Of a stretch of DNA of 64,000 nt, positions 19,368-21,349 are shown piece after piece; position 1 is the first letter of the stretch; the number at the start of each line of letters is the position of its first letter. The notes under the pieces were generated by a model, which worked only from the letters and a program-made list of their open reading frames with translations, did no database searches and was not told where the DNA came from. A program made the position numbers and the translations under genes. This DNA comes from Bacteroidales bacterium (GTDB taxonomy: Bacteria; Bacteroidota; Bacteroidia; Bacteroidales; UBA1402): positions 62,001 through 126,000 of the forward strand of contig JAFODP010000018.1 in assembly GCA_017380635.1 (NCBI GenBank), read 5' to 3'.

Positions 19368-19379
19368 AGAGTATTGATT

Positions 19380-20120
19380 ATGAAACTTTTAGAGAACAAA
19401 GTAGCGCTGATTACCGGCGCAGCCAGAGGCATCGGCAAAGCCGTCGCTTTGAAATTTGCCTCGGAAGGTGCAAACATTGCTTTCACCGACATCAGAGAAG
19501 ACGAGAATTTCAACAAGACCTTGAGCGAATTGCAAGCTTTTGGCATTCAAGCAAAAGGCTATGTATCGAACGCAGCCAGTTTTGAAGAGAGTCATGAAGT
19601 GGTGAAGCAGATTGTGGCCGATTTCGGTCGCATCGATGTGTTGGTAAACAATGCCGGCATCACTCGCGACGGATTGTTGCTGCGCATGAGCGAAGAACAA
19701 TGGGACGCTGTTATCACGGTCAATCTGAAATCGGCTTTCAACTTCAGTCACGCCGTAGTGCCTGTGATGATGCGTCAAAAAGGCGGCAGCATCATCAATA
19801 TGTCGTCGGTAGTGGGTGTTGGCGGTAATGCCGGTCAATGCAACTATTCTGCTTCGAAAGCGGGCATGATTGGTTTGGCAAAATCTATCGCCAAGGAAAT
19901 GGGCGCCAAAGGTATTCGTGCCAATGCTATTGCACCGGGTTTCATCATTACCGAAATGACCGGTCAGCTGAGCGAAGAAGTGAAAGAAAACTGGCTGAAA
20001 ACCATTCCGCTTCGTCGTGGTGGCACGCCCGAAGACATCGCCAATGTGGCCACTTTCCTGGCCAGCGATTTGTCGAGCTACGTTACCGGACAAGTAATCC
20101 AAGTGGACGGTGGCATGTAA
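19380..20120 (+). CDS. fabG: 3-oxoacyl-ACP reductase
   Basis: FabG reduces 3-ketoacyl-ACP with NADPH. The 246-residue short-chain dehydrogenase has the nucleotide-binding TGAARGIG (residues 12-19), NNAG (90-93), and the catalytic S143, Y156 and K160 in SSVVGVGG and NYSASKAG. I start at ATG 19380; a TTG six bases upstream is also in frame but gives only two extra residues. It completes the elongation cycle encoded by fabK, fabF and fabZ. A clear terminator begins 29 bases after its stop. Confidence 0.96.
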   Translation: MKLLENKVALITGAARGIGKAVALKFASEGANIAFTDIREDENFNKTLSELQAFGIQAKGYVSNAASFEESHEVVKQIVADFGRIDVLVNNAGITRDGLLLRMSEEQWDAVITVNLKSAFNFSHAVVPVMMRQKGGSIINMSSVVGVGGNAGQCNYSASKAGMIGLAKSIAKEMGAKGIRANAIAPGFIITEMTGQLSEEVKENWLKTIPLRRGGTPEDIANVATFLASDLSSYVTGQVIQVDGGM

Positions 20121-20149: not shown

Positions 20150-20178
20150 AGGAAGTTGCTTCACGGCAGCTTCCTTTT
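20150..20178 (+). terminator. Intrinsic terminator after fabG
   Basis: AGGAAGTTGC at 20150-20159 pairs with GCAGCTTCCT at 20166-20175 (one G-U pair), loop of six bases, followed by TTT. It ends the fab unit just before the palindromic elements. Confidence 0.85.
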
Positions 20179-20193
20179 CCATTTATTCCAAAC

Positions 20194-20492
20194 AACGCAG
20201 ACGGCGCCGTAGTTCGCCGATTATCACGAATCGAAAAGATTTGTCAGAATTGGTGAAATGGCGTGGCATTGAGATTTGGGGCGAAGGGAGTTTACTGAAG
20301 TAAATGACCGAGTCCCAATATCGAAAAGGGCGCGTCAGTTCGCCAATTATCACCCCAACGCATGAAAGATTTGTCAGAATTGGTGAAATATGGTGGCGGC
20401 AAGTTGCGAGGCGAAGGGAGCGTACTCGAAGTACGTGACCGAGCCGAGCAACGCAGCCGGCGCCATAGTTCGCCGATTATCACAAATCTTTC
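20194..20492. repeat. Tandem large imperfect palindromes (one complete 129-bp element, one diverged, one half)
   Basis: Element B (20364-20492) is an imperfect palindrome whose ends GAAAGATTTGT and ACAAATCTTTC are symmetric about 20428, exactly the middle of a perfect inner hairpin CGTACT-CGA-AGTACG (20421-20435). Element A (20235-20360) has the same arms and a centre TTTACT-GA-AGTAAA, so the inner stem is kept although the outer base pairs differ. A half element (20194-20230) matches the right arm of B. The gap has no credible gene. The right end of B overlaps the last codons of the minus-strand acyltransferase. The form resembles a REP- or MITE-type element; no transposase is nearby. Confidence 0.85.
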
Positions 20493-21349
20493 CTCCAGCG
20501 ATTGTGCGTCCAAAGCCAAGCCTCAGGCGCCGCCATCAAATCCTGCTCCAGCCTACGTGCATATTTTTCGGTAATCTCGCCGGGAGAAGTGAGGGTGGGT
20601 TCGTCGCAAAGCATTTCCAAATGACAATGGTAACGGCCACGGCCTAGTTTAGACATGCGCGCATAAAGAACGGCATAATCGTATTTGCGCGCCAAAAATT
20701 CGGTACCGGTAAGGAAAGGCGTATCCTGATGAAGGAAGGTGGTCCAATGCCAATGTTGCGGATTTTTACGCGAAGGTTTCTGATCGGCAATCATGCCATA
20801 AAATCCGGTGACGCCATTATTATGATTTTCATCGAGTTTGCGCATTAAATCGTGCATTTCGATATTGACATTGTGTCTGCGTTGACGCACATCCATCATC
20901 ACTTTATCGAAATGTTTGTTGGACAAAGCGCGGTAAATGGTAAAGTAGTTGTAGTCTTTCTCGAAAGATAATTTAGCGCCGGTAAGCCATTCGTAATTGC
21001 CATTGTGCGCGGTCATGATAAAGGCAGCCTGCTTCTTGGCCAAAGCTTCGTCCAGCACTTCTTTGCCGCTATAGGTAAGGCGACGCTTGATTTCTTTTTT
21101 CGACATGTGAATACTGTACATCGATTCTATCATCACGTCCACAAAGTTGCGATAGACGCGCCATTCCAATCGCTTGATTTCCTTCAGGGATTTTTCGGGG
21201 AAAGACTGTGTCAGATTGCGACGCACCAACTTACGACGATAGCGCAGCACGTGATACATCAATAACGCACAGAAATCAGACAAAGGATAAAGCAATGGCA
21301 GCGGCAACCACATCAACAGCCAAAGAAAAGCATAAAATATCCAGAACAT
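20480..21349 (-). CDS. Lipid A biosynthesis-type acyltransferase (HtrB/LpxL family)
   Basis: This 289-residue protein has an N-terminal hydrophobic segment (residues 2-32) and the LpxL acyltransferase motifs: TAHNGNYEW with H115 and E120 as the HX4E catalytic pair, MIADQKPSRKN, and the C-terminal WLWTHNRWRKDL typical of the family. It should transfer an acyl chain from acyl-ACP to lipid A or a related lysophospholipid at the inner membrane. The last codons and the stop (AAAGATTTGTGA on the minus strand) lie inside the right arm of the palindromic element at 20364-20492. The -7 box TACCTTTG (plus 21385-21392) lies 35 bases upstream. Confidence 0.9.
   Translation of the reverse strand: MFWIFYAFLWLLMWLPLPLLYPLSDFCALLMYHVLRYRRKLVRRNLTQSFPEKSLKEIKRLEWRVYRNFVDVMIESMYSIHMSKKEIKRRLTYSGKEVLDEALAKKQAAFIMTAHNGNYEWLTGAKLSFEKDYNYFTIYRALSNKHFDKVMMDVRQRRHNVNIEMHDLMRKLDENHNNGVTGFYGMIADQKPSRKNPQHWHWTTFLHQDTPFLTGTEFLARKYDYAVLYARMSKLGRGRYHCHLEMLCDEPTLTSPGEITEKYARRLEQDLMAAPEAWLWTHNRWRKDL

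Follow-up and report, generated by a model that had tools for sequence, protein, structure and literature searches.

The palindromic array behind the acyltransferase gene

In the window, the 64,000-nucleotide stretch of Bacteroidales DNA analysed here (genome G000), an array of palindromes lies between a gene for a short-chain dehydrogenase and a convergent gene for a lipid A biosynthesis acyltransferase (Table 1). A sequence-only reading of this DNA had described a 129-bp palindrome centred on CGTACT-CGA-AGTACG, a diverged copy just upstream and a third half-copy. All three are present, the palindrome centre falls at 20421-20435, and the ends of the 129-bp element are GAAAGATTTGT/ACAAATCTTTC, as that reading gave them. 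As RNA, the + strand of the complete unit folds at -75.1 kcal/mol (z -11.2; 0 of 200 shuffles as good) versus -52.0 kcal/mol for the - strand; as DNA, the corresponding values are -39.9 and -25.4 kcal/mol. The upstream unit also folds far better than its shuffles (z -4.9). The core pattern of the element was found twice in the window versus 0.00 occurrences expected by chance. At its right arm, the foot of the hairpin, the element overlaps the acyltransferase stop codon (20480-20482) and the last codons of the gene (KDL*).

Table 1. Features of the palindromic array and its flanking genes (window coordinates).
Feature	Position	Strand	Basis
Upstream short-chain dehydrogenase (FabG-like) gene, same direction as the folded strand	19374..20120	+	
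Intrinsic-terminator-like stem AGGAAGTTGC...GCAGCTTCC-TTTT, beyond the element array viewed from the acyltransferase gene	20150..20179	.	read directly
Right half of a third, truncated unit	20192..20227	+	
Second, diverged tandem copy; inner stem TTTACT/AGTAAA; core 20283-20312	20235..20358 (about)	+	
Complete element, 129-bp imperfect palindrome	20364..20492	+	sequence, repeats, fold; covariance-model match 20384-20471
Distal basal arm GAAAGATTTGT, mirroring the arm on the gene side	20364..20374	+	
Conserved apical module GAAGGGAG-CGTACT-CGA-AGTACG-TGACCGAG	20413..20443	+	pattern and cross-phylum comparison
Abutting convergent gene, lipid A biosynthesis acyltransferase (PF03279)	20480..21349	-	
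Gene-side basal arm, containing the AAA GAT TTG (KDL) codons of the abutting gene	20482..20492	-	

A widespread hairpin family with a conserved apex

A first search of G000 returned 42 matches, and an iterated profile search of the sites resolved 47 units in 20 clusters, many of them arranged in tandem and repeating every 126-146 bp or so. With a covariance model built from 45 diverse sequences, we searched 60 genomes and found matches in 14, including about 49 copies in G000 and 37 in its congener G002, and no copies in the congeners G001, G003, G004, and G005 (assemblies 70-83% complete). Arrays expand or contract quickly: at the 3′ end of groEL, G000 carries four tandem units (L019) while G002 carries one (L035).

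Copies of the apical module, GAMGGGAG-[covarying 5-bp stem]-TGACCGAG, also occur in Clostridia, Porphyromonas, Helicobacter, Gracilibacteria, and further lineages. Across 69 diverse sequences, T-A, C-G, and G-C pairs replace one another in the inner stem without loss of pairing, and the three pairs next outward vary freely with complementarity kept (Z about 7). The remainder of the stem is mostly variable in sequence, and the half-length from the apex to the end of pairing is fairly constant, with a median of 61 on either side. A reading of the apex as a kink-turn was rejected because the apex has no 3-nt bulge.

The pattern CTCGGTCA-stem-CTCCC[GT]TC, which is the reverse complement of GAMGGGAG-stem-TGACCGAG and captures only copies with an intact core, occurs in at least 115 stretches of the species genome collection. 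The matches listed include the isolates Porphyromonas somerae DSM 23386 and Helicobacter bilis ATCC 51630, together with metagenome-assembled genomes (MAGs) of Clostridia, Gracilibacteria, Alistipes, Campylobacterota, and others; many of the genomes are MAGs and possibly misbinned, although isolates are also included. The distribution is patchy, with the exact pattern in only 3 of 295 Bacteroidales genomes. The palindromes are real members of a widespread repeated hairpin family found in very different bacteria, and this family is probably mobile. Four viral contigs (L190-L193) also contain the core, and in two of these the copies are Helicobacter-like; a plasmid search gave no match to the element.

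In some relatives, the element resides within larger units. P. somerae (G287; L312-L341) harbors at least 40 copies of a miniature inverted-repeat element (MITE) of roughly 176 bp, with ends GAGACTGTTGCACGAAG / CTTCGTGCAACATTCTC, that contains the element. These copies are 94-100% alike over the probed end, which suggests that the MITE has probably been active recently. Several have short direct repeats (TTAAT at L049, ATGAG at L051), candidate target-site duplications, which are not uniform. In G006, G031, and G053, copies apparently lie between differing terminal-type inverted repeats. Terminal inverted repeats are shared among copies in P. somerae but not in Clostridia, where the arms are unique to the locus. 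Outside MITEs, we saw no clean empty allele that would mark a recent transposition. In Helicobacter rappini and H. bilis (L111:5222-6631(-), L120:451-2340(-)), the element lies in open frame inside two genes, one for a FabH-like protein of 470 aa, in which it falls between the two ACP_syn_III domains, and one for a protein of 630 aa matching thiamine-pyrophosphate enzymes.

The strand of the element that folds well is the template strand of the abutting gene. Isolated G.T/T.G wobbles within the stems number 80 on the GAMGGGAG strand versus 19 on the other (p 4e-10), and isolated G.A/A.G mismatches number 125 versus 11; kinship among copies is ignored in both comparisons and in the p value. We detected neither enrichment of a sigma-70-type promoter beside the hairpin for the folded strand nor T enrichment or a T-run after the distal arm. 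Given this strand asymmetry and the lack of promoter enrichment and T-runs, a folded DNA strand is somewhat more likely than a stand-alone RNA. The lack of promoter enrichment also led us to reject a stand-alone antisense RNA with a sigma-70-type promoter. The structured RNA that the sequence-only reading had offered as an alternative gained no support from promoters or Rfam and is a possible, somewhat less probable, reading.

Stop codons and the foot of the hairpin

Seventeen of the 20 element clusters in G000 abut the stop codon of an opposite-strand gene. In stop-anchored hairpins of both Clostridia and G000, the base sits at the stop and the apex about 60 nt past it. In a cross-phylum set of mostly Clostridia, with genes called by a simple open-reading-frame rule, 40 of 66 elements have the apex 45-70 nt after a stop codon in a fixed orientation, whereas uniform placement expects 19 and the maximum of 200,000 simulations was 31. 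The mirror arrangement occurs in two cases of this set, and a second cluster of stop-apex distances near 186-214 matches the second units of tandem arrays. In the held-out Bacteroidales G031, G040, G006, and G053, the element was not at stop codons and was often within MITE-like inverted repeats; anchoring is also weak in P. somerae, whose copies lie mostly elsewhere in intergenic DNA. Because the held-out test failed, we narrowed the claim: stop-codon anchoring holds in several lineages, not in all.

At the G002 orthologues of three G000 sites (L014, L016, and L017; empty sites L223, L224, and L225), neither the element nor any hairpin follows the stop, and inverted repeats of at least 10 bp occur at the stop in only 3% of gene ends free of the element. 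On these grounds, we rejected insertion into pre-existing terminator loops. The L011 orthologue in G002 has a short remnant, which suggests deletion. Direct reading of the window and several other G000 sites revealed terminator-like stems beyond the element, so the element fits in between the stop and the terminator and does not replace the latter.

The basal arms differ among loci of one genome, yet remain complementary. This behavior is clearest at queA, in one clade of Clostridia, where the element begins at the queA stop in 15 genomes and the last four codons of the gene pair with the distal arm. The C-terminus of the protein is native, aligning flush to the end of QueA structure 1vky. Over the 12 pairs of the foot, 86.7% of cells are paired versus 62.7% in shuffles, and covariation is 0.619 versus 0.203 (sd 0.032) in shuffles and 0.08-0.16 in slid controls. 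Double changes occur in 41 cells of the foot and, over the consensus fold of the element, in 18 of 30 pairs. Whether a queA codon is CTC, CTG, TTG, or ATG, the distal arm matches it in most species; the foot at L242, with an unmatched distal arm, is apparently a transitional state. Close relatives mostly differ in their arms by single bases, a pattern that selection would produce as well. At L258 (about 2480-2550), the queA stop is directly followed by a perfect inverted copy, 19 bp long, of the last codons, and no element lies between the arms; this mirror copy may be an empty target, an excision scar, or a bare template switch.

Two further observations were made behind queA. At L235, L236, L238, and L254, direct partial copies of the queA end recur about 25-35 nt past the element, as though the gene end were part of the array units. 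Several of these Clostridia (L241, L242, and L251) carry another dispersed palindrome, (T)GTCATTTCGAGCG...GAGAAATCTC, which resembles CGTC/TGTC REPs.

The mirrored flank in P. somerae is the left end of the MITE. Given the locus-specific complementary arms, the queA codons, and this MITE end, the flank on the 5′ side of CTCGGTCA, whether a gene or a transposon end, appears mirrored on the other side of the element in the cases read closely. The foot can thus be host coding sequence.

A structured element serving the host at gene 3′ ends, as RNA (antisense or 3′ UTR) or as DNA, might regulate termination of translation, mRNA stability, or convergent transcription. The stop position and the arm pairing would then be selected, and would not be by-products of insertion or template switching; selection for a long stem is likewise an alternative to template switching at the foot. 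Such a role would fit the sharp stop-to-apex distance, the strand-specific folding, and retention at queA in 15 genomes with double changes throughout the stem, but we consider it unlikely, as the element is often lost or truncated at queA (L239, L241, and L249), is patchy between congeners, occurs in MITEs and in frame inside Helicobacter genes, and has no promoter for the folded strand.

The element could also be the inner part of several insertion-sequence derivatives, that is, of ordinary MITEs whose terminal inverted repeats are the arms. The abundant P. somerae unit and the copies between different inverted repeats in G006, G053, and G031 have this form. The same inner part, however, is joined to unrelated arms in many lineages, and some arms are built of native queA codons; terminal repeats would not be expected to yield arms confined to one locus each. 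With stop anchoring added, this explanation is already hard to hold in Clostridia, and we regard it as improbable overall. A large intrinsic transcription terminator is very improbable: terminators that overlap the stop codon are indeed present at some gene ends without the element in these genomes, but the distal arm is not followed by T enrichment, separate terminator-like stems lie beyond the element, empty orthologous sites have no hairpin at the stop, and the gene-sense RNA is the poorer folder.

Machinery, known repeats and a proposed origin

We searched for enzymes that might accompany the element. No Y1 transposase is present in G000, and of 38 further element-bearing genomes that we searched, 25 lack one as well; the 17 Y1 loci detected in element-bearing genomes besides G000 all lack a nearby element. 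We found no reverse transcriptase (PF00078) in G000, in G002, or in most of the remaining element-bearing genomes, and TnpB (PF07282) gave one sub-threshold match among 27 genomes. Since none of these proteins tracks the element, we rejected a RAYT/REP partnership, a retron or group II intron product, and a TnpB/omega-RNA guide. An Rfam family was rejected on covariance models, which gave no match at E<=1 in the window stretch and none at gathering score in 18 other loci. The REP- or MITE-like family suggested by the sequence-only reading thus holds with respect to many copies, covarying stems, the lack of a transposase, and residence inside MITEs in some relatives, but not with respect to a RAYT-type partner.

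REP elements form GTAG- and CGTC-tagged super-families with units of 20-40 bp, and CGTC REPs, like our element, lack a transposase (PMC3733652). Both are dispersed, hairpin-based extragenic palindromes of several phyla. Unlike REPs, which end in an unpaired tag, the element has a unit of about 125 bp, a conserved apex, a locus-specific foot of host sequence with no terminal GTAG-type tag, and a position fixed to the stop codon. In the literature as far as searched, CGTC REPs are the nearest described relatives, and we found no description of this repeat family or of foot mirroring in any known repeat family.

Enterobacterial ERIC sequences are extragenic imperfect palindromes of about 127 bp without a transposase and are conserved over their whole length. 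By description, the element resembles them in size, extragenic palindromic form, and lack of a transposase, but it conserves only its apex and spans phyla. It resembles MITEs where copies lie between terminal-type inverted repeats (P. somerae, G006, G031, and G053), but elsewhere its arms are locus-unique and can be host codons. With integron attC sites, it shares a folded bottom strand, an imperfect palindrome, sequence-free stems, and an adjoining stop codon; unlike attC, it has a conserved apex, lacks R boxes (GTTRRRY / RYYYAAC) in the feet read directly, and lies behind housekeeping genes with no cassettes following at the sites read. The in-frame Helicobacter copies recall Rickettsia palindromic elements, which differ in sequence, size, and apical module. 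By the features tested, the family belongs neither to REP nor to attC nor to any Rfam family.

We favor, with a probability of roughly 0.55, a REP/MITE-like mobile hairpin that acts as a folded single strand and whose arms are re-copied from the flank by template switching. Recognition of a folded single strand is known for REP, IS200/IS605 ends, and attC, and a putative trans-acting factor would recognize the element in the same way. New copies would insert into, or persist in, the short gap that separates stop from terminator. The strong hairpin would make the replication fork switch template, so that, over and over, the distal arm would be overwritten with a mirrored version of the gene-side flank, be it codons or a MITE end. 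That hairpins arise and are maintained through template switching is known (PMC8794818), and this, together with the mirrored flank, underlies the last part of the proposal.

The mobile hairpin is suggested by copy number, arrays, patchiness, the cross-phylum apex, stop anchoring, strand asymmetry, fold energies, the covariation of the queA arms at a native C-terminus, the L258 mirror copy, the mirrored MITE end in P. somerae, and the hairpin-free empty sites. Against it stand the failure of Y1, reverse transcriptase, or TnpB to track the element, the absence of anchoring in the held-out Bacteroidales and its weakness in P. somerae, the lack of a clean empty allele outside MITEs, and the single-base arm changes. 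In the genomes examined, the element is non-autonomous. More tentatively, it might represent a new class of mobile single-strand hairpin, stop-anchored and with a foot that is mirror-copied from host codons while pairing is kept, served by a putative unrecognised enzyme; we regard this as possible but doubtful.

A repeat that conserves its apex and has a host-coding foot at a fixed distance from the stop in distant phyla falls outside the described REP, ERIC, MITE, and attC classes. It also carries a warning, in that strong covariation at gene ends need not imply a functional RNA. The element provides a natural setting in which to follow how hairpins of bacterial genomes are maintained by template switching, as well as a clear target for finding the putative single-strand-DNA enzyme.
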